Shown here: positions 41,630 to 50,645 of the stretch, piece after piece
Position numbering within the stretch: position 1 is the stretch's first letter
Layout of the letters: each line of letters opens with the position of its first letter
Origin: Streptomyces yatensis
Lineage (GTDB): Bacteria; Actinomycetota; Actinomycetes; Streptomycetales; Streptomycetaceae
Direction of reading: 5' to 3'
DNA: 64,000 nucleotides
Assembly: GCF_018069625.1 (NCBI RefSeq)
Contig: NZ_CP072941.1
Span: forward strand, 1,178,001-1,242,000
Notes under the pieces: generated by a model
Database searches by the model: none
What the model was told of the DNA's origin: nothing
Seen by the model: only the letters and a program-made list of their open reading frames with translations
Program-made: the position numbers and the translations under genes

Positions 41630-42241
41630 TCAGTGGTGCGGGGTGTCGCCGAAGGCCGTCACGGTCAGGAACCGTATGGGCAGGGTGATCAGCTTCTCCG
41701 GGCCGTGCGGCGCCTCGCCGTCGAACTGCAGGGCGTCACCGGCCCCCAGGGTGTAGCTGGACTTGCCGTGGCCGTAGACCATGACGCCGTCGAGCATGTA
41801 GATCAGCTCGGTGCCGCCGTGCTGGAAGAGCGGGAACACCTCGCTGGACTCGGTGAGGGTGACCTCCAGCGCCTCCATCCGCTTGTCGCTGCCGCGCAGG
41901 GCGCCGAGCAGGGCGTACTCATGGCCGATCCGGGTGCCGCGGCGCACGATGCGGGCGCCGTGGCCGGCCGGGACGAAGACGGCCTCGCGCTCGTCGTCCA
42001 ACCCGCGGAAGAGCGCGGTGACGGGCACGCCCAGGCCGCGCGCGAGCCGGGAGAGGGTGGTGAGGCTGCAGGCGGTCTGGGCGTTCTCGATCTTGGACAG
42101 CATGGCCTTGGAGATGCCCACCCGCTGGGCCATCCCGCCCACCGACGCCCCGGCCGCCTGCCGGTACTCCCGCGTGCGGACCGCGATGATCCGCTCCAGT
42201 GCCTTGTCGTCGTCCCCCGCGTCTGCCGCCATTCCCCGCAT
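41630..42241 (-). CDS. XRE-cupin transcriptional regulator
   Basis: A 203-residue protein: an N-terminal XRE helix-turn-helix (AQRVGISKAMLSKIENAQTACSL-type region, residues about 20-75) joined to a C-terminal cupin (LFQHGGTELIYMLDGVMVYGHG, YTLGAGDALQFDGEAPHGP), which would bind a small molecule. Such regulators often control amino-acid, polyamine or permease genes. It is downstream of, and on the same strand as, the NCS1 permease gene with a 236-bp gap containing two hairpins, so it is probably a separate transcript. A start at 42232 is an alternative. Confidence 0.92.
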   Translation of the reverse strand: MRGMAADAGDDDKALERIIAVRTREYRQAAGASVGGMAQRVGISKAMLSKIENAQTACSLTTLSRLARGLGVPVTALFRGLDDEREAVFVPAGHGARIVRRGTRIGHEYALLGALRGSDKRMEALEVTLTESSEVFPLFQHGGTELIYMLDGVMVYGHGKSSYTLGAGDALQFDGEAPHGPEKLITLPIRFLTVTAFGDTPHH

Positions 42242-42477: not shown

Positions 42478-43905
42478 TCAGGAGCCCGCCACCGCCGCCG
42501 TCTTCTCCGGCCGCGGCCCGGGCGTGGCGGGGACGTCCCGCGTCCACAGCGGCCGCAGCCGGTAGGTCAGCAGATAGAGCACCGCGGCGGCGGCCGCCGC
42601 GACGAACATGCTCAGATCGCCCGCGTGCGGATAGGCCGCGGCGAACGCCCCCGTGTAGAGGTCGGATTGCCAGAACGGCACCGAGGCCACCACCCCGCCG
42701 GCCCAGGCGACGAAGCCCCAGGAGAGCACCCGTCCGCGGTCGTACAGCTCGGCGATCCGGCCGGGGTCGGAGCGGCCGCCCAGGTGGTAGTCGAGCAGCA
42801 GCACGGTGGCGAACGGCGCGATGAAGTACGCGGTGAGGTTGAGGAACACCGAGAACTTGTCCTCGATCCCGGAGTGTCCCCACAGGCTGATCCCGTACGC
42901 CAGCGCGCAGATGAGGGTGACCGCCTGGGTCCGGGTGAACGGCACCTTCAGCGTCTGGATGGAGATCGCGCCGCCGTAGACGTTGAGGAAGTTCTGCGCG
43001 AGCGCCGAGAGCCCGATGGCGACGAGGGCGGGGATGGCGAACGGCCCGGTCAGCTGGTGCAGGGCGGTGATGGAGTCGGTGCTGGTGGCGTTGGAGCCGA
43101 GGAGCACGCCGAGGATGCCGAGCCAGCAGATGGTGACGAAGTTGCCGAGCCCGGTGTACCAGGCGGTGCGGCTCACCACACGGGGCGAGTCGGGCAGATA
43201 GCGCGAGTAGTCCGAGGCGAACGGCGCCCAGGCGACCAGGAAGGAGAGGAACCAGCCGCCGAAGGTGATCCAGCCCCCGGTGGAGCCCACGTAGTCCGGT
43301 GCCTTCGGATCGGCGTCGAAGGTGCCCGCGCCCCGGACCAGGGCCACCACCGTGATCATGACGAACAGCGGGGTGAGCACATAGGTCAGCACCCGCTGCA
43401 GGAAATTGATCATGTTGTAGCCGTAGATGGACACCACCAGCTCGACCAGGGTGAGCGCCAATCCACAGACCCAGAAGGGCAGATGGGTCAGCTCGGCGAT
43501 GGCCTTGCCGCCGAGGATCACGGTGACGGCGGCCCAGCCGACCCCGGCGAACACATTGATGTACGCCACCGGCAGGAAGTTGCCGAAGAAGCCGAGCGGG
43601 CCACGCGCCTGGATCTGCTGGGGCACCCCCAGCCGTACGCCCATCCGGGACATCACGGCCATCAGCAGCGAGCCGAGACCCGCGCCGGCCACGATCGCGG
43701 CGACGGCGGCGCCGAAGCTGAGACCGAGCCCGACCGCGCTGAACCCGAGCAGGATGATGGGGAAGTTGAGACCGGCGGCGAACCAGACGAAGAACTGCGA
43801 ACTGGGCTTGCCATGCCGCTCGTTGTCGGGGATGTGGTCGACCCCGAAGGGCTCCACCTTGGTGACCGCGCTGCCGTACACCGGCGCCGTGTCGTCGTGG
43901 GTCAT
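42478..43905 (-). CDS. NCS1-family cytosine/purine-type permease
   Basis: A 475-residue permease with about 12 helices. VEPFGVDHIPDNERHGKPSSQFFVWF is the conserved NCS1 cytoplasmic N-terminus of CodB-like carriers; GGWFLSFLVAWAPFASDYSRYLP carries the conserved SDYSRY block. NCS1 proteins import nucleobases, allantoin, hydantoin or related heterocycles by H+ or Na+ symport. AGGAG precedes the ATG. It is 73 bp downstream of the SnoaL-flavin reductase gene on the same strand and so likely brings in the substrate of the neighbouring oxygenase locus. Confidence 0.92.
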   Translation of the reverse strand: MTHDDTAPVYGSAVTKVEPFGVDHIPDNERHGKPSSQFFVWFAAGLNFPIILLGFSAVGLGLSFGAAVAAIVAGAGLGSLLMAVMSRMGVRLGVPQQIQARGPLGFFGNFLPVAYINVFAGVGWAAVTVILGGKAIAELTHLPFWVCGLALTLVELVVSIYGYNMINFLQRVLTYVLTPLFVMITVVALVRGAGTFDADPKAPDYVGSTGGWITFGGWFLSFLVAWAPFASDYSRYLPDSPRVVSRTAWYTGLGNFVTICWLGILGVLLGSNATSTDSITALHQLTGPFAIPALVAIGLSALAQNFLNVYGGAISIQTLKVPFTRTQAVTLICALAYGISLWGHSGIEDKFSVFLNLTAYFIAPFATVLLLDYHLGGRSDPGRIAELYDRGRVLSWGFVAWAGGVVASVPFWQSDLYTGAFAAAYPHAGDLSMFVAAAAAAVLYLLTYRLRPLWTRDVPATPGPRPEKTAAVAGS

Positions 43906-43978
43906 GGGCGTGCTCCTGGGACGGGAGGAGTGGACGTCAGGGGGGACCGGTGGGCGTACGGATCCGGGTGGCGGCGTC

Positions 43979-44896
43979 TCACCACGGCAGCGGCGCGGTC
44001 TGCGAGATGTCGAAGAAACCGCCGCCGCTGTAGACCAGCGGGGCCAGCTCCGCATGGCGGGCGGAGACCACCCGGCCGGTGAAGACGGTGTGGCTGCCGG
44101 CCTCCAGCCGCTCGCCGATCTCCACCTCCAGCTGGGCGCAGGACCCGTCGATCAGCGGGGCGCCGAACTCACCGGCGGTCCAGGGCAGTTCGGCGAACTT
44201 GTCGTCCGCCTTGGAGGCGAAGGTCCTGGCCACCTCGAGCTGGCCGGCGGCGAGGATGTTGATCCCCAGATGGCCGGCCCGGTGCAGCGCGGGGTGGGTG
44301 GTGGAGGTGCGCTGCACGCAGACCAGCACCATCGGCGGATCCAGCGAGATGCTGGCGAACGCGTTCACCGCGAGCCCCCGGGGCCTGCCGTCGTCCTGGC
44401 AGGTCACGACGGTGACACCGGTGATGAACTTACGGTGCACCCCACGGACCAGATCGGCGTCGACGGCCGCTCGCTGGGTGGTGGTGATGATCCCGAGCGC
44501 CTCCAGCAGCTGACGGGGATCCCAGGTCACCCACTCCTCGCTGACCACACCGTGGTCGAAGCGGGTGAAGGTGGCGCCGGAGACCTCGACCGGCCTGCCG
44601 GTGGCCGGCACGCCGAGGAAGTCGCCGGTGTGACTGCCGGTGCTGCGCCAGCGGATCGCCAGCGACTCGCCCTCCTCGACGATCTCCTCGATCTCGGTAC
44701 GGAGATCGGGGAAGGCCCGGCGGATGGCGCGGACCGACTCCTTGAACTGCTCCCGGCCCTGGGGGGCCGCGGCAGGGCCGCGACGGCGCACATAGCCGGG
44801 GCTGAGCAGCTGGTCGAGCGCGTCGACCTGACCCTGGTCCCAGACGGCCTGCCAGGTGGAGCGGATGCGGGCGGTGCGGTCAAGAGTATGCGTCAT
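43979..44896 (-). CDS. Fused SnoaL-like / flavin reductase protein
   Basis: A 305-residue two-domain protein. Residues about 1-135 are a SnoaL-like (ester cyclase/NTF2) domain: ALDQLLSPGYVRRRGP, RRAFPDLRTEIEEIVEEGE, WRSTGSHTGDFLGVPATGR. Residues about 148-300 are an FMN-binding NADH:flavin reductase of the RutF/HpaC type: VHRKFITGVTVVT, GLAVNAFASISLDPPMVLVC, GINILAAGQLEVARTF. The reductase should supply reduced flavin to the divergently encoded LLM monooxygenase. The fused SnoaL domain is unusual and might cyclise, hydrolyse or hold an intermediate. GAGGGAAG precedes the ATG at 44896. Confidence 0.9.
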   Translation of the reverse strand: MTHTLDRTARIRSTWQAVWDQGQVDALDQLLSPGYVRRRGPAAAPQGREQFKESVRAIRRAFPDLRTEIEEIVEEGESLAIRWRSTGSHTGDFLGVPATGRPVEVSGATFTRFDHGVVSEEWVTWDPRQLLEALGIITTTQRAAVDADLVRGVHRKFITGVTVVTCQDDGRPRGLAVNAFASISLDPPMVLVCVQRTSTTHPALHRAGHLGINILAAGQLEVARTFASKADDKFAELPWTAGEFGAPLIDGSCAQLEVEIGERLEAGSHTVFTGRVVSARHAELAPLVYSGGGFFDISQTAPLPW

Positions 44897-44918
44897 GACG
44901 TCTTCCCTCACTCAGCTC

Positions 44919-44928
44919 TTGTATGGCA
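44919..44928. promoter_or_regulatory. Candidate operator 1, TTGTATGGCA
   Basis: This 10-mer lies at the predicted transcription start of the flavin reductase promoter. The same sequence recurs at 49871-49880 and a near-copy in reverse at 49961-49970, by the GntR gene. Confidence 0.55.
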
Positions 44929-44932
44929 GAGG

Positions 44933-44962
44933 ACCGTAGGAAGGGCCATCAGTCGCTGTCAA
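44933..44962 (-). promoter_or_regulatory. Promoter of the flavin reductase-permease operon
   Basis: On the minus strand, TTGACA (44962-44957) and TACGGT (44938-44933) are separated by 18 bp. Transcription should start near 44926, about 30 bp before the ATG. Confidence 0.65.
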
Positions 44963-45053
44963 CACCTAGGGCCGAATGAACCGGAAATGGGCCGGCGAGA
45001 CCTCTCCGAACAGCAAAGACACAGGTCAATAGGAGTTGCCTCGACCGTGACCC

Positions 45054-45083
45054 TTGACGGAGCCAGAATCGGACTCCTAGCCT
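45054..45083 (+). promoter_or_regulatory. Promoter of the LLM monooxygenase operon
   Basis: TTGACG at 45054-45059 and TAGCCT at 45078-45083 have an 18-bp spacer. The start point falls near 45090, which rules against the in-frame ATG at 45091 as the true start codon unless the mRNA is leaderless. Confidence 0.65.
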
Positions 45084-45086
45084 CCC

Positions 45087-45096
45087 TGCCATGGCA
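45087..45096. promoter_or_regulatory. Candidate operator 2, perfect palindrome TGCCATGGCA
   Basis: A perfect 10-bp palindrome covering the predicted start of LLM transcription. It is built from the same TGCCA/TGGCA half-sites as the other candidate operators of this locus. Confidence 0.55.
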
Positions 45097-45129
45097 CAGC
45101 GTGAGCCGGAAGAACAGGACGGACGCTGC

Positions 45130-46269
45130 ATGCGCTTCTCGATATTTCACAATCTCGGTGCCCCGGGCCGTCTCGGCGAGTACGCCGACGTCATGGCGGA
45201 GGCCCGGGAGTTCGCGGTCACCGCGGACCGGGCGGGCTTCTGGTCCACCTGGTACACCGAGCACCACTTCGGGCACGAGGCGATCGAGATCACCCCGAAC
45301 CCGGTGCTGATGGGGGCGGACATCGCCGCCCGTACGACGGATATCCGGATCGGCCAGGCGGCCTCGATCGCCACCTTCTGGCATCCGCTGCGGCTCGCCG
45401 AGGACATCGCGATGCTCGACCAGCTCTCGGGGGGCCGGGTCGAGGTCGGCCTCGGCCGGGGGCTGTACGGCCGCGAGGCGCTCAACCTCAACGCCCTGGC
45501 CGATCCGCGCGACCAGGAGCAGAACCGCGCGCTCTACGCCGAGACCGTGGAGGTCCTGCGCAAGGCGTGGAGCGGCGAGTTCTTCTCGCACCAGGGCCGC
45601 TTCTATGAGTTCCCCGCCCCCGGGGTGAAGTGGAACCATCCCCTCTCCCCCGCCACCCCGGAGTACACCGAGGCCGGGGTCATCACGAAGATGCGGGTGA
45701 CCCCCTTCCCGTTGCAACGGCCGCACCCTCCGCTGTGGCAGGTCATCGACAGCCCCCGCTCGATCAGGGCCGCGGCGGCGGACGGCGTCCAGGGGCTCTT
45801 CTGGCTGCCGCCGGTCTCGGCGCTCAAGGAGCGGTTCGAGCTCTACCGGGACACCGCGAGCCAGGCGGCGGGGCGCGAGTACGCGCTGGGCGAGGGCATC
45901 GGTCTGGTGCGGGATGTGTATGTCGCGGACACCATGGAGCAGGCGCGCGCCGAATTCGAAGAGGCGCTGATGACCACCTACCGGTGGATCATGCACTGGC
46001 GGGGGCTGGGCAACCTCATGGAGGCGGGCGAGGAGCTCACCGACGCCCATGAGCTGTCCTTCGACTTCCTCCAGCGGCGCAATCTGCTGGTCGGCACCCC
46101 CGAATACGTCTCGGAGAAGATCGCCGAGCTGCGCGACGAGGTGGGGTGTGAGCATCTGCTGCTGTGGACCACCCATCCCGGTCTGCCGCACCGCAACGCG
46201 ATGCGCAGCCTGGAGCTGTTCGCCGAGAAGGTCATGCCGCAGTTCACCACCGGCGGCGGTCATGGCTGA
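45130..46269 (+). CDS. LLM-class flavin-dependent monooxygenase
   Basis: A 379-residue luciferase-like TIM-barrel protein. Family marks are MRFSIFHNLGAPGRLGEYADV, AGFWSTWYTEHHFGHEA (the EHHF motif of LLM oxygenases), IRIGQAASIATFWHPLRLAEDIAMLDQLSGGRVEVGLGRG-type core (seen at residues about 75-115) and HPPLWQVIDS. Enzymes of this class use reduced FMN and oxygen, for example RutA, which opens the uracil ring. The ATG at 45130 is preferred because the promoter starts near 45090. The flavin reductase is encoded divergently and the gene overlaps the following PF06684 gene by 8 bp. Confidence 0.93.
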   Translation: MRFSIFHNLGAPGRLGEYADVMAEAREFAVTADRAGFWSTWYTEHHFGHEAIEITPNPVLMGADIAARTTDIRIGQAASIATFWHPLRLAEDIAMLDQLSGGRVEVGLGRGLYGREALNLNALADPRDQEQNRALYAETVEVLRKAWSGEFFSHQGRFYEFPAPGVKWNHPLSPATPEYTEAGVITKMRVTPFPLQRPHPPLWQVIDSPRSIRAAAADGVQGLFWLPPVSALKERFELYRDTASQAAGREYALGEGIGLVRDVYVADTMEQARAEFEEALMTTYRWIMHWRGLGNLMEAGEELTDAHELSFDFLQRRNLLVGTPEYVSEKIAELRDEVGCEHLLLWTTHPGLPHRNAMRSLELFAEKVMPQFTTGGGHG

Positions 46270-46870
46270 GGCGGTGCTGCGCAAGGTCGTCACCGTCGCC
46301 GATGAGCTGCTGCTGGAGCTCGGCCGCCCGGTCGCGGTGCCGGTGCGCCGGGTCGCGGCGGCCGCGGTGATCCACAACCCCTGGGCCGGCGGCGGCCTCG
46401 TCGCCGATCTGGGGCCCGAGGTGGAGCGAATCGCACCGGGGCTGGCCCGGCTGCTCACCGGCCGGATCAGCGAGGCGCTGGGCGGGGTCGACCGGATCGA
46501 GTCCTTCGGCAAGGCCGCGATCGTGGGGCTCGACGGGGAGATCGAGCACGGCGGCGCGCTGATCCACACCCCCTTCTTCGGCAATGTCTTCCGCGAGCTG
46601 ACCGAGGGCACCTCGATCATCGTCTTCAGCGACGACCGGCTTCCGGCCGGTGAGCCGCTGACCGTGCCGCTGTGGCACAAGACCGCGGCCGCGACCCGCT
46701 CGCACTACCAGACCTGCCAGATCCGCATCCCCGACGCGCCCCGCCCGGACGAGATCGTCGTCATCGCGGCCGGGGCGTCCGGCCCCCGTCCGAACGCCCG
46801 GATCGGGGACCGCGCCACCGACCCCCTCATCCGCCTCGCCGATCTGGACGATCTGGAGACCGTGACGTGA
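46262..46870 (+). CDS. PF06684 (amino acid synthesis) family protein, copy 1
   Basis: A 202-residue protein of the family named for amino acid synthesis, whose activity is not established. Conserved blocks are AAAVIHNPWAGGGLVADLGPEV, IESFGKAAIVGLDGEIEHGGAL, LWHKTAAATRSHYQTCQIR and RPDEIVVIAAGASGPRPNARIG. The ATG lies within the end of the LLM gene and its stop overlaps the next start (GTGA), so it is coupled on both sides. Its location between an oxygenase and a hydrolase suggests a catabolic step on a ring-opened product rather than biosynthesis; this is inference. Confidence 0.9.
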   Translation: MAEAVLRKVVTVADELLLELGRPVAVPVRRVAAAAVIHNPWAGGGLVADLGPEVERIAPGLARLLTGRISEALGGVDRIESFGKAAIVGLDGEIEHGGALIHTPFFGNVFRELTEGTSIIVFSDDRLPAGEPLTVPLWHKTAAATRSHYQTCQIRIPDAPRPDEIVVIAAGASGPRPNARIGDRATDPLIRLADLDDLETVT

Positions 46871-47418
46871 ACATCCGCAAGATCATCACCTTCACCGAGG
46901 ACATCCACAGCGAGGGCGGCCGCCCGGTGGACCCGCCGGCCCGTACGGCGGTGGTGCTCGCCGTCATCGAGAACCCGTGGGCCGGTCAGGGCTTCGTGGC
47001 GGATCTGCTGCCCGGGATCGACGAGGCGGCGCCGAAGCTGGGCGCGTTGCTGGCACCCCGTGTGGTCGAGGCGCTGGACGCGCCGGTGGAGGCGTACGGC
47101 AAGGCCGCGATCGTGGGGCTCGACGGGGAGGTCGAGCACGGCTCCGCGCTGATCCACACCCTGAAGTTCGGCGACCACTTCCGCCGGGCGGCGAACGCGA
47201 CCACCCTGCTGCCGGCCGTGGAGAAGCGGGCCGCCGCGGGAACGGTCTTCGACATTCCGCTCAAGCACATCACCGACGCCACCATCCGCTCGCACCACCA
47301 GAGCATCGAGGTCCGGGTGGCGGACGGGCCGCGCGCCGACGAGATCGTCATCGGGCTCGCGGCGGCCGCCCAGGGCCGCCCCCAGGCCCGGCTGGCCCCG
47401 CTGTCGACGGAGCGGTGA
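46867..47418 (+). CDS. PF06684 (amino acid synthesis) family protein, copy 2
   Basis: A 183-residue paralogue of the preceding protein: VIENPWAGQGFVADLLPGI, VEAYGKAAIVGLDGEVEHGS, LKHITDATIRSHHQSIEVR and ADEIVIGLAAAAQGRPQARL line up with copy 1. The two differ by about 20 residues in length, mainly in the C-terminal tail. A 34-nt stretch (46507-46540 and 47097-47130) is identical between the copies, far above the rest. They may form a hetero-oligomer. The GTG start overlaps the copy 1 stop; the gene ends 5 bp before the alpha/beta hydrolase ATG. Confidence 0.9.
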   Translation: MNIRKIITFTEDIHSEGGRPVDPPARTAVVLAVIENPWAGQGFVADLLPGIDEAAPKLGALLAPRVVEALDAPVEAYGKAAIVGLDGEVEHGSALIHTLKFGDHFRRAANATTLLPAVEKRAAAGTVFDIPLKHITDATIRSHHQSIEVRVADGPRADEIVIGLAAAAQGRPQARLAPLSTER

Positions 47419-47423
47419 GCGGC

Positions 47424-48329
47424 ATGGACGCGGTGCGGGCTCCCGGCGGGACGCCGGGGGCGGGCGCTCCCGGCGGGCCGGCCCCGGCGGGGGCCCGGGC
47501 GCCGGTGGCGCTCGCCCATGAGTCCCATGGCACGGGGACACCCATGGTGCTGCTGCACGGCGTGGGCCTGGACCGCCACATGTGGGACCGCTGTCTGCCC
47601 GCGCTGGCCGCCCGGCACCACGTGACGCTGGCCGACCTGCGCGGCCACGGCGCCTCCCCGGCCGCGGCGGCCGGGGTGTCCCTCGCCGAGCTGGCCGCGG
47701 ACGTCGGGGCGCTGCTGAGCGGCCCCACGCATATCGTCGGCTTCTCGCTCGGGGCCCTGGTCGCCCAGCGGCTGGGGCTGGACCGGCCGGACCTCACCGC
47801 CTCGCTCACCCTGGTCAGCTCGGTCGCGGGCCGGTCGGAGGAGGAGCGGGCGGCGGTCTCCCGCCGCCAGGAGCTGGCCGCCGAGGACTTCGGGGCGTCC
47901 GCGTGGGCCGCGGTCGACCGCTGGTTCTCCCCCGCCTGGCGGGCCCAGGACCCCGGTCTGGCGCAGCGGGTGCTCGACACCCTGCTGGCCAACGACCGGG
48001 CCTCCTACCTCGCGTGTTACCGGGTCTTCGCGACGGCCGACACCGGGCTGTGGCGGTGGCTGCCCCGGATCGCCGCCCCCACCGTGGCGGTGACCGGCGA
48101 GCGGGACCCCGGCTCGACCCCGGCCATGTCGCACCGGCTGGCCGGGCGGATCCCCGGCGGCCGGGCGGTGATCGTGCCCGGCGCCCGCCATCTGCTGCCG
48201 CTGGAGTGCCCCCAAGAACTCGCCGCCGTGATCCTCACCCACACCGGAGCCCACCCCGGAAGCCCCACCGGAACCGATACCGGAACCGACGCCGGAGCCC
48301 ACACCGGACAGGAGTCCCACCGCTCATGA
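47424..48329 (+). CDS. Alpha/beta hydrolase (enol-lactonase/RutD-like)
   Basis: A 301-residue hydrolase. PMVLLHGVGLDRHMWDRCL (oxyanion HG), VTLADLRGHGASP, HIVGFSLGALVAQRLGL with the nucleophile Ser, VAVTGERDPGSTP with Asp, and GARHLLPLECP with His give a full catalytic triad. It resembles 3-oxoadipate enol-lactonases and RutD. An Ala/Gly/Pro-rich N-terminal extension and a C-terminal tetrapeptide-repeat tail are likely disordered. The ATG at 47424 follows GGAG; a GTG at 47415 overlapping the previous stop is an alternative. The stop overlaps the aldehyde dehydrogenase start (ATGA). Confidence 0.9.
   Translation: MDAVRAPGGTPGAGAPGGPAPAGARAPVALAHESHGTGTPMVLLHGVGLDRHMWDRCLPALAARHHVTLADLRGHGASPAAAAGVSLAELAADVGALLSGPTHIVGFSLGALVAQRLGLDRPDLTASLTLVSSVAGRSEEERAAVSRRQELAAEDFGASAWAAVDRWFSPAWRAQDPGLAQRVLDTLLANDRASYLACYRVFATADTGLWRWLPRIAAPTVAVTGERDPGSTPAMSHRLAGRIPGGRAVIVPGARHLLPLECPQELAAVILTHTGAHPGSPTGTDTGTDAGAHTGQESHRS
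48243..48302 (+). repeat. 12-bp tandem repeat in the hydrolase 3' end
   Basis: Five consecutive 12-bp units related to ACCGGAACCGAC, plus half a unit, encode tetrapeptides such as TGAH, TGTD and AGAH at the C-terminus. They run up to the coupled start of the aldehyde dehydrogenase gene. Confidence 0.8.
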
Positions 48330-49813
48330 ACCCTCTGCCGCGCCACGACCACTACATCGCGGGCGAGTGGACCGCCCCCGCCGACGGCGGTTACTTCGCC
48401 AGCGTCAACCCGGCCACCGCCGAGCCCTGGTACGAGGCGGCGCGCGGCACCGCCGCCGATGTGGACCGTGCGGTGGGCGCCGCCCGTACCGCCTTCGAGG
48501 ATCCGCGCTGGCGCGATCTGAGCCAGACCCGGCGCGGACGGCTGCTGCGGAACCTGGGCGATCTGATCGGTGAGCACGCGGAGCGGCTGGCCCGTACCGA
48601 GACCCTCGACAACGGCAAGCTGCTGCGGGAGATGCGGGCCCAACTCGCCGGGCTGCCCGAGTACTTCTACTACTACGCGGGACTCGCCGACAAGATCCAG
48701 GGCGAGGTGATCCCCGGGGCCAGCCGCGAGCTGCTCAACTACACCCTGCGCGAACCGGTGGGCGTGGTCGGCGCCATCACCCCCTGGAACTCCCCGCTGC
48801 TGCTCACCGCCACCAAGCTGGCCCCGGCCCTGGCCGCGGGGAACACGGTGGTGGTCAAGCCCTCCGAACACACCTCGGCCTCGCTGCTGGCGCTCGCACC
48901 GCTCTTCGAGGAGGCGGGGTTCCCGCCCGGGGTGGTCAATGTGGTCACCGGATACGGCGCGGAGGCGGGCGCGCCGCTGACCGAGCACGAGGCCGTGGCC
49001 AAGGTGACCTTCACCGGCTCCAGCGGGACCGGCCGCCGGATCGCCCGTACCTGCGCCGACCGGTTGATCGGCTGCACCCTGGAGCTGGGCGGGAAGTCGC
49101 CCAACATCATCTTCCCGGACGCCGATCTGGGGTCGGCCGCCATGGGGGTGATCGCGGGCATCTTCGCGGCCGCCGGGCAGACCTGTGTGGCGGGGAGCCG
49201 GGTGCTGGTGCACCGGGAGGCGTACGACGAGGTCCTGGAGCGGGTGACGGCGCGGGCGGCCACGATCCGGGTCGGCGATCCGCTGGAGGAGACCACCGAG
49301 CTCGGCCCGCTGGCCCTCGCCGAGCAGCTGGCGAAGGTCGAGTCGTATGTCGAGCTGGGGCAGGCCGAGGGCGGAAAGGTGGTCTGCGGCGGCAGGCGGC
49401 CGGACACGGGCCTCGACGGGTACTACTACTCCCCCACCGTCTTCACCGGCACCGACAACGGGATGCGGATCTGCCAGGAGGAGATCTTCGGCCCGGTCGC
49501 GACCGTCATGCCCTTCGGCTCCGAGGAGGAGGCCCTGGCGATCGCGAACGACTCCGCGTACGGCCTGGCGGCGGGGGTGTGGACCCGGGATGTGAACCGC
49601 GTGCACCGGATGGCCGCCCGGCTGGAGGCCGGGACGGTGTGGGCCAACACCTATCGCTCGATGTCGCCGATGTCGCCCCGGGCCGGGTTCAAGACCAGCG
49701 GGATGGGGACCGAGCACGGCACGGAGGTGATCCGGGAGTACACCCGGCTGAAGAGCGTCTGGATCAACACCAGCGAGGAGCCCGCCGGGGATCCCTTCAT
49801 CCTGAGGTCCTGA
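48326..49813 (+). CDS. Aldehyde dehydrogenase (NAD(P)-dependent)
   Basis: A 495-residue classical ALDH. Cofactor site: GAITPWNSPLLLTATKLAPALAAG and FTGSSGTGRRIA. Catalytic Glu: LELGGKSPNI. Nucleophilic Cys: AAGQTCVAGSRV. EEIFGPVATVMPF near the C-terminus is the usual family block. It would oxidise an aldehyde left after ring opening and hydrolysis to an acid that enters central metabolism. It is the last gene of the LLM-PF06684-PF06684-hydrolase-ALDH operon, all members of which overlap or nearly abut. Confidence 0.95.
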   Translation: MNPLPRHDHYIAGEWTAPADGGYFASVNPATAEPWYEAARGTAADVDRAVGAARTAFEDPRWRDLSQTRRGRLLRNLGDLIGEHAERLARTETLDNGKLLREMRAQLAGLPEYFYYYAGLADKIQGEVIPGASRELLNYTLREPVGVVGAITPWNSPLLLTATKLAPALAAGNTVVVKPSEHTSASLLALAPLFEEAGFPPGVVNVVTGYGAEAGAPLTEHEAVAKVTFTGSSGTGRRIARTCADRLIGCTLELGGKSPNIIFPDADLGSAAMGVIAGIFAAAGQTCVAGSRVLVHREAYDEVLERVTARAATIRVGDPLEETTELGPLALAEQLAKVESYVELGQAEGGKVVCGGRRPDTGLDGYYYSPTVFTGTDNGMRICQEEIFGPVATVMPFGSEEEALAIANDSAYGLAAGVWTRDVNRVHRMAARLEAGTVWANTYRSMSPMSPRAGFKTSGMGTEHGTEVIREYTRLKSVWINTSEEPAGDPFILRS

Positions 49814-49870
49814 GGTCCGGAGCAGATCGTGGGCCGGTCCTGGGCCGGTCCTGGGCCGAAGGAAGGGTTC

Positions 49871-49880
49871 TTGTATGGCA
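49871..49880. promoter_or_regulatory. Candidate operator 3, TTGTATGGCA
   Basis: An exact copy of the 10-mer at 44919-44928; with flanking bases it reads TTGTATGGCACAA, a TTGT/ACAA dyad. It is 58 bp after the ALDH stop and about 85 bp before the GntR start. Confidence 0.5.
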
Positions 49881-49926
49881 CAACACCCGAGCGCGTCTCC
49901 GGTTGATTTCTCCGCTGATCCCTCGG

Positions 49927-49956
49927 TTGACGGGGGACGGCGGCCGCCTCTAGGGT
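49927..49956 (+). promoter_or_regulatory. Promoter of the GntR/FCD gene, probably leaderless
   Basis: TTGACG at 49927-49932 and TAGGGT at 49951-49956 have an 18-bp spacer. The predicted start falls at about 49963, at the ATG (49965), so the mRNA should lack a leader; no ribosome site is visible before the ATG. Confidence 0.65.
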
Positions 49957-49960
49957 CACG

Positions 49961-49970
49961 TGCCATGCAA
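49961..49970. promoter_or_regulatory. Candidate operator 4, TGCCATGCAA
   Basis: The reverse complement (TTGCATGGCA) matches the TTGTATGGCA sites at nine of ten positions. It covers the predicted transcription start and the start codon of the GntR gene, so it is well placed for autorepression. Confidence 0.5.
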
Positions 49971-50645
49971 CAACCCACCGGAAAGCGGCTTCAGCAGACC
50001 AGCATGCAGGCGAGGGTCGCCGAAGAGCTGCGGCAGATGATCATCAGTGGTGAACTGCCGCCCCGCTCCAGCCTCTCCGAGATGGCGCTGTCCGAGACCT
50101 TCGGCGTCAGCCGGACGCCCATCCGCGAGGCCCTCAAGCAGCTCCAGATCGAGGGGCTGGTCGAGGTGCGGCCACGGGTCGGAACGTTTGTCGCCGTACC
50201 GTCCCGGCGCGAGCTGACCGAGCTGTTCCAGATGAAGGAGCTGCTGGAGGGCGCCGCCGCCCGGCTGCTCGCCTTCCGCGGGAACGTACCGGAAGTGGAG
50301 CGGCTGGAGGCCACTATGACGGCGGCCGACGCGGCCGTCCGGGACGGCGACGCCGAGCAATACGCGGCGCTGGTCCACGAGTTCCACGATCTGATCGTGG
50401 TGGGCGCCGACAACAGCAAGCTGGAGGCGCACTACCGCACCCTGATGAACCAGCTGGCCTACGCCCGGCTGGTGCGCACCTCGCTGTCCCGGCCCGGCCG
50501 GCTGGACGAGTCCGACGATGAACACCATCGCGTCCTCAACCTGATCCAGGCCAAGGACGGCGACGGCGCGGAGCGGGTGATGCGGGAGCACGTGCGGATG
50601 AGCCACCAGGCCCTGATGGCGGGCATGGACGAGCGCCGGGCCTGA
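49965..50645 (+). CDS. GntR-family (FCD) transcriptional regulator
   Basis: A 226-residue FadR-type regulator. The winged helix-turn-helix (LRQMIISGELPPRSSLSE, LSETFGVSRTPIREALKQL) occupies residues about 15-80. The all-helical FCD ligand domain has the metal-site pattern in VHEFHDLIV and DDEHHRVLNLI. The ATG at 49965 fits the leaderless promoter. It follows the ALDH gene by 151 bp on the same strand and likely represses the catabolic locus until a substrate or acid intermediate binds. Confidence 0.93.
   Translation: MQQPTGKRLQQTSMQARVAEELRQMIISGELPPRSSLSEMALSETFGVSRTPIREALKQLQIEGLVEVRPRVGTFVAVPSRRELTELFQMKELLEGAAARLLAFRGNVPEVERLEATMTAADAAVRDGDAEQYAALVHEFHDLIVVGADNSKLEAHYRTLMNQLAYARLVRTSLSRPGRLDESDDEHHRVLNLIQAKDGDGAERVMREHVRMSHQALMAGMDERRA

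Follow-up and report, generated by a model that had tools for sequence, protein, structure and literature searches.

The locus reported here has its closest characterised counterpart in Acinetobacter, in the pathway (tgn) by which the plant compound trigonelline is degraded. A 2018 study by Perchat reportedly resolved this pathway into cleavage of the ring between C5 and C6 and N-formyl intermediates, with methylamine, formate, CO2, and succinic semialdehyde as the products released. On a plasmid of Acinetobacter sp. PK01 (L061; L numbers denote loci throughout), genes for a GntR regulator, a PF06684 protein, an alpha/beta hydrolase (ABH), a flavin reductase, a luciferase-like monooxygenase (LLM), an aldehyde dehydrogenase (ALDH), a cytosine permease of the NCS1 type, and a succinic semialdehyde dehydrogenase (SSADH) lie together. 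The names tgnA (reductase), tgnB (LLM), and tgnC (ALDH) come from the NCBI annotation; TgnD (ABH), TgnE (SSADH), and TgnF (PF06684) were assigned to the PK01 genes in this analysis. We compared this cluster with a locus of Streptomyces yatensis that lies in a window of 64,000 nucleotides (nt), corresponding to positions 1,178,001-1,242,000 of a genome that consists of a single 10.36 Mb contig. All the gene kinds listed for PK01 except SSADH are present at the Streptomyces locus, which differs from the PK01 cluster in that its LLM is not a TgnB orthologue, PF06684 is doubled, the reductase is fused to a SnoaL domain, SSADH lies outside the locus, and the order of genes is another.

Similar clusters are found on other plasmids. 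A Pantoea plasmid cluster has similar content, including an 'allantoin permease' 60% identical to the PK01 NCS1 protein. Sinorhizobium meliloti pSymA (L033) and a plasmid of Rhizobium sp. SL42 (L032) share with the window the content PF06684-ABH-reductase-LLM-ALDH, with SSADH near in L033, but have ABC transporter genes in place of NCS1, one PF06684 gene, and an LLM that is 72% identical to PK01 TgnB. The name 'flavin-dependent trigonelline monooxygenase' stands on at least 8 of 120 relatives of the S. meliloti LLM among the matches listed and on none of the 120 relatives listed for the window LLM, where names are abbreviated and often absent. The Arthrobacter dokdonellae plasmid pDCT5 (L031) carries NCS1, SnoaL-reductase, GntR, tandem PF06684, ABH, and ALDH genes whose products are 49-77% identical to those of the window. 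However, its LLM is TgnB-like, sharing 50% identity with PK01 TgnB and 29% with the window LLM, its LLM gene closes the operon, and there are additional genes for a tautomerase, SSADH, riboflavin kinase, and a NUDIX protein.

The preliminary description of the window had credited PF06684 with no firm activity, but a lead exists: a passage in PMC7913881 describes the PF06684 protein HcdD as a homologue of Acinetobacter baylyi TgnF and reports that TgnF stimulates the oxidation of succinic semialdehyde by TgnE in trigonelline degradation. The two PF06684 proteins of the window, P1 and P2, are 47% and 41% identical, respectively, to the PK01 PF06684 protein and 47% identical to each other. The window ALDH is 47% identical to PK01 TgnC over 486 amino acids (aa) and 35% to PK01 SSADH. 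The reductase domain is 41% identical to PK01 TgnA over 147 aa, a match confined to the reductase half since the fused partner differs. The ABH is 30% identical to that of PK01 over 246 aa; its best NCBIfam match is the PcaDC model (168.2 of 390 bits).

The genes from LLM to ALDH (Table 1) overlap by 8, 4, 4, and 4 nt and form a tight operon core, while the GntR gene starts 152 nt past the ALDH end. The SnoaL-reductase is one uninterrupted open reading frame (ORF), with SnoaL at residues 15-137 and Flavin_Reduct at residues 160-302. Every gene named in the preliminary description was recovered among the ORFs and in our Pfam search, which scanned ten window proteins, and the overlapping plus-strand genes and the fusion that it reported are present as well. 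Because the only two PF06684 matches in the genome are both at this locus, compared with 41 PF00296 matches including the window LLM, and because the pairing of LLM and PF06684 recurs in every locus selected by LLM (see below), the grouping of these genes goes beyond chance.

Taken together, we think it likely that the locus serves to break down a small betaine with an N-heterocyclic ring, the best candidates being trigonelline and similar N-methylpyridinium carboxylates. The NCS1 permease would import the betaine, the SnoaL-reductase would supply reduced flavin, and the LLM would open the ring in an O2-dependent reaction. The ALDH would then oxidize the resulting aldehyde or lactol, the ABH would split the N-formyl-enamine product in a TgnD-like role, and P1 and P2 might help at the enamine/semialdehyde stage, with a succinic semialdehyde dehydrogenase predicted to be encoded elsewhere in the genome and the GntR/FCD protein as the putative regulator of the locus. 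The preliminary description had already proposed a conserved catabolic gene set that probably imports an N-heterocycle and opens it by LLM and flavin reductase, all of which we retain; its choice of the Rut pathway as nearest model we do not. The window has a TgnA-type reductase, a TgnC-type ALDH, and two copies of a TgnF-type PF06684 protein. Because its LLM is not of the TgnB type and no SSADH lies inside the cluster, the locus is trigonelline-type in its predicted working and is not classed as a tgn locus.

The window LLM and its relatives (LLM-A) were used alone, as an alignment, to scan contigs, and the best 80 of 324 matching loci were compared (40 from Actinomycetota, 30 from Bacillales, and 10 from SAR11). 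PF06684 was the next tested family after LLM-A in 80/80 loci, so the neighbourhood comparison that the preliminary description had proposed as a check bore out its gene set. The order PF06684(-PF06684)-ABH-ALDH was intact in 77/80; L065 and L067 end at contig ends, and in L095 the ABH was found by tblastn without a called ORF. PF06684 was doubled in 39/40 Actinomycetota (the exception being L065) and single in all 30 Bacillales and all 10 SAR11 loci. A GntR match was near the operon in 38/40, 28/30, and 0/10 loci of the three groups, respectively. The fusion seen in the window is not universal: SnoaL and reductase were encoded by one ORF in 19/40 actinobacterial loci and by two ORFs in 12/40, and the reductase was without a matched SnoaL in 9/40, among them L084, which was scored this way since its SnoaL match exceeds the script limit and where a separate 149-aa ORF is present. 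Bacillales reductases were FMN_red-type proteins in 22/30 loci (Pfam on L113) and TgnA-type in 9/30. A protein of 97 aa that matches no Pfam family (L113:14132-14422) has relatives in 29/30 Bacillales loci. Near the SAR11 loci (L135-L144), we observed an EutA-like gene, below the model cut-off, in 8/10 and a branched-chain-type binding protein in 5/10.

The transporter varies among these loci. Actinobacterial LLM-A loci had NCS1 in 27/40, BCCT in 11/40, and neither in two (L079, L102). In Bacillales, BCCT was present in 18/30 and NCS1 in 17/30 (five of these matches being weak, at 22-24%), with both in six loci and neither in L123. Loci with a TgnB-like LLM (LLM-B) had BCCT matches in six of six cases (L196-L201) and NCS1 in L031, L045, and L055. 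Pfam confirmation of the BCCT matches covers L113, L121, L081, and L083 only. According to the family descriptions, BCCT proteins are of the betaine/carnitine/choline family and NCS1 proteins are of the N-heterocycle/nucleobase type. Because an N-heterocyclic betaine such as trigonelline would suit either kind of carrier, the alternation points to a compound of this sort as the substrate.

PF06684 was found in 22 of 199 genomes of the genus, and 24 regions around the genus matches were compared. Eight have the layout of the window, with LLM first (L041, L043, L047, L048, L052, L053, L054, and L056, which is at a contig end). In a second layout, tandem PF06684, ABH, ALDH, and tautomerase genes are followed by a TgnB-like LLM (L045, L055, and the cut L057 with L038, from one genome); the A. 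dokdonellae plasmid has this layout too. The remaining regions show PF06684 in other settings, one remnant (L037), or fragments. The permeases of L045 and L055 are 82-85% identical to that of the window and their P2 proteins 77-78%. No genome had both LLM-A and LLM-B; these were found in 3/394 and 10/394 genomes of the class, numbers too small for an inference about substrate. One genome of the genus (G180) carries both the window-type locus L054 and, elsewhere, the remnant L037, in which a permease (84%), a SnoaL-reductase (62%), a 48-aa PF06684 stub, and an XRE-cupin gene (87% to that of the window) are left.

In a tree of 55 LLM sequences (24 LLM-A, 8 LLM-B, 22 of the 41 from the window's own genome, and one from Peribacillus), LLM-A and LLM-B each formed one clade with one label change (24 rows, support 100/99, and 8 rows, 100/100), and judged from this separate clade the window LLM is not a TgnB orthologue. 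LLM-A, LLM-B, and the Peribacillus LLM (L064) were grouped with 99/91 support against the 22 own-genome LLMs, in a tree with many long branches. An exclusive clade of LLM-A and LLM-B was rejected (approximately unbiased test, p-AU 0.0012), as L064 groups with LLM-A.

The trees of the other proteins run differently. In an ALDH tree of 50 loci, 16 of them with LLM-B, ten actinobacterial LLM-B rows and four Micrococcaceae LLM-A rows made up a 14-row branch (100/100) nested in a 34-row actinobacterial branch (100/100), and the starred branches force three changes of LLM label. When this 34-row subset was tested apart, a single LLM-B clade was rejected (p-AU 0.0096). A tree of P1, P2, and ABH together (31 rows) gave the same nesting, with a 13-row branch and two label changes. 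Because actinobacterial LLM-B cores are nested among LLM-A cores (10/12), these trees support well that at least one exchange of oxygenases between LLM-A and LLM-B has taken place. A second exchange, within Actinomycetota, is suggested by one of the trees, that of the ALDH. In four Micrococcaceae LLM-A loci (L090, L092, L093, and L094), a tautomerase gene lies behind ALDH, and in L031 the tautomerase is followed by LLM-B; it is plausible that these loci form a before-and-after pair of the exchange.

Several observations weigh against a trigonelline-type pathway or against the history just outlined. The window LLM is 26% identical to PK01 TgnB, relative to which LLM-A has an insert of ~24 residues, and the sister of LLM-A, on a Peribacillus plasmid, has other neighbours and no PF06684. 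The window NCS1 protein is only 25% identical to that of PK01, whose tgn names in turn come from annotation, not experiment. Pfam found no SSADH among the ten window proteins, and the best SSADH of the genome, 46% identical to that of PK01, is encoded at 446 kb, 0.78 Mb away from the locus at 1,223 kb. A passage in PMC7913881 states that all attempts to see a TgnF-like stimulation by HcdD failed. No reductase, NCS1, or GntR gene was matched near the ten SAR11 loci, in one of which (L135) a 595-aa ORF separates LLM from PF06684, and in the two Bacillales loci examined for it, the second ALDH had its best score with a lactaldehyde dehydrogenase model, below the cut-off. Within LLM-B, L202 encodes an LLM with 91% identity to that of Arthrobacter across 310 residues and has no tested partner gene in the 20 kb compared. 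As for the exchange, one undivided LLM-B clade was not rejected with the P1, P2, and ABH tree (p-AU 0.30), and in the ALDH tree two actinobacterial LLM-B loci (L203, L204) group with four proteobacterial tgn cores, beside the SAR11 LLM-A loci.

The separation of LLM-A and LLM-B into two clades could also mean that the pathway is of the same type but the substrate another, such as homarine, N-methylisonicotinate, or N-methylnicotinamide, with LLM-A attacking a different position of the ring than TgnB. LLM-A is present in SAR11, where the EutA-like gene lies near most loci, and passages in PMC8269262 report homarine in seawater, in amounts that the authors later corrected downward, and call TgnA/TgnB unlikely to act on it for steric reasons. 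A homarine operon has reportedly been described; none of the papers among the matches listed names it. However, 70 of the best 80 loci are from Actinomycetota and Bacillales, which we regard as mainly terrestrial, and the permease and P2 proteins of L045 and L055 resemble those of the window closely even though the LLM is of the other kind. Moreover, both LLMs are served by the same kinds of ALDH, PF06684 protein, and ABH, suggesting that the two products are identical or closely similar. We therefore regard another pyridinium betaine or a pyridine carboxylate as a possible substrate, though a less likely one than trigonelline.

A non-betaine heterocycle as substrate (pyridine, pyrazine, hydantoin, or imidazole) seems improbable to us. 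NCS1 permeases carry neutral heterocycles according to their family description, a PF06684 gene lies beside a 6-hydroxynicotinate reductase gene in L063, and Arthrobacter sp. 68b reportedly has a pyridine pathway, but BCCT replaces NCS1 in more than a quarter of the LLM-A loci of Actinomycetota, and more than half of those from Bacillales contain it.

The Rut pathway of E. coli has the same common plan of LLM, reductase, hydrolase, and permease, whereas the window has ALDH and PF06684, for which we know of no Rut counterpart, where Rut has RutB, RutC, and RutE. Although an LLM, a RutF-like reductase, an ABH, and a nucleobase-type permease are all at the locus, the ring opening of uracil or another pyrimidine proposed in the preliminary description is highly improbable: the NCBIfam RutF and RutD models gave 71.3 and 47.1 bits against cut-offs of 254.75 and 238.5, RutA was not among the matches listed for the LLM (25 of 28), isochorismatase, RidA, and nitroreductase had no Pfam match in the ten proteins scanned, as that description had noted for RutB, RutC, and RutE equivalents, and the BCCT proteins in the permease slot of relatives would be unsuited to uracil.

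A wider and more speculative proposal, which we hold to be rather doubtful as a whole, is that LLM-A is an unrecognised second family of enzymes opening the ring of pyridinium betaines (in Actinomycetota, Bacillales, and SAR11) able to replace TgnB within one kind of operon, that PF06684 is an enamine/imine enzyme that does the work of RutC and has a related fold of the chorismate-mutase-like type, and that marine SAR11 bacteria use their operon to turn over homarine or trigonelline. The window LLM belongs to a branch other than that of TgnB, one that also occurs in the corresponding operons of Bacillales and SAR11. If the trigonelline-type reading is right, an LLM clade without a named substrate gains a testable one, PF06684 can be placed in a pathway with the ABH as its constant companion (a PF06684 gene immediately precedes that for the ABH in 77/80 LLM-A loci), and Streptomyces, many Bacillales, and SAR11 join the users of pyridinium betaines. 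One set of downstream genes paired with either of two distant oxygenases would constitute a natural swap experiment that shows which steps are shared. Among the papers searched, none paired the amino acid synthesis family with luciferase-like monooxygenase, none brought together trigonelline, Streptomyces, and ring-opening, and one on SAR11 genes contained none of five related terms.

P1 and P2 score well above the gathering cut-off of PF06684 (AA_synth, DUF1185; 27 bits). In an alignment of 12 family members, both keep the invariant residues E93, E95, H96, H102, R176, and R180 as well as the nearly invariant H148. Relatives of P2 in the PDB are 2qtp and 3byq. RutC/RidA proteins presumably share a SCOP fold with PF06684, and we infer that PF06684 proteins act on an enamine or imine. 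By our own mapping, the conserved residues match Glu90, Glu92, His93, Arg172, and Arg176 of BB2672, which are discussed in a passage of PMC2954203. The family also occurs in other settings: in Sulfitobacter (L063:8423-9585), a tandem PF06684 pair has genes for UPF0280 and 6-hydroxynicotinate reductase as neighbours, a second pyridine-type setting for such pairs, and in Streptomyces (L058:6728-10190), a single PF06684 gene lies beside ORFs that by eye are hydantoinase-like and class III aminotransferase-like.

Table 1. Genes and promoter features of the S. yatensis locus, in window coordinates.
Feature	Position	Strand	Basis or remark
XRE-cupin regulator, candidate extra part adjoining permease	41630..42232	-	recurrence in relatives
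NCS1-type permease, PF02133	42478..43905	-	Pfam, 115.7 bits; transporter slot
SnoaL-flavin reductase fusion, 310 aa	43979..44911	-	PF07366 + PF01613; TgnA-type reductase domain
Divergent promoter region	44912..45090		12-locus alignment
Conserved block CTTGTATGGCAGAGGAC	44918-44934		12-locus alignment
TTGACG, -35-like block	45054-45059		12-locus alignment, by eye
TAGCCT, -10-like block	45078-45083		12-locus alignment, by eye
LLM-A, luciferase-like flavin-dependent oxygenase	45091 (or 45130)..46269	+	PF00296, 170.6 bits
PF06684 protein P1 (TgnF-like)	46262..46870	+	195.9 bits
PF06684 protein P2, GTG start	46867..47418	+	204.9 bits
Alpha/beta hydrolase (ABH), GTG start	47415..48329	+	PF12697
Aldehyde dehydrogenase (ALDH), TgnC-like	48326..49813	+	PF00171
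GntR/FCD regulator	49965..50645	+	Pfam; similar matches near related loci

The region between the divergent reductase and LLM genes was aligned for 12 Streptomyces-type loci, the window included, and promoter elements were read by eye. In the window, TTGACG and TAGCCT are separated by 18 nt, and the last base of TAGCCT lies 7 nt upstream of 45091. An inverted repeat that could serve as an operator was sought in this region and not found. Because ATGGCACAGC at 45091 is unchanged in all 12 rows, a 9-nt gap follows just downstream in 6/12, and the spacing is promoter-like, translation of the LLM probably starts at 45091 rather than 45130. With the promoter predicted here, a transcript from 45091 would be leaderless. 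The closest named relative of the LLM among the matches listed is that of Streptomyces niphimycinicus (98%). Finally, the XRE-cupin regulator may belong to the locus, with genes of this kind occurring at varying positions near L055, L078, L080, L088, L089, and L207 and beside the remnant in L037.

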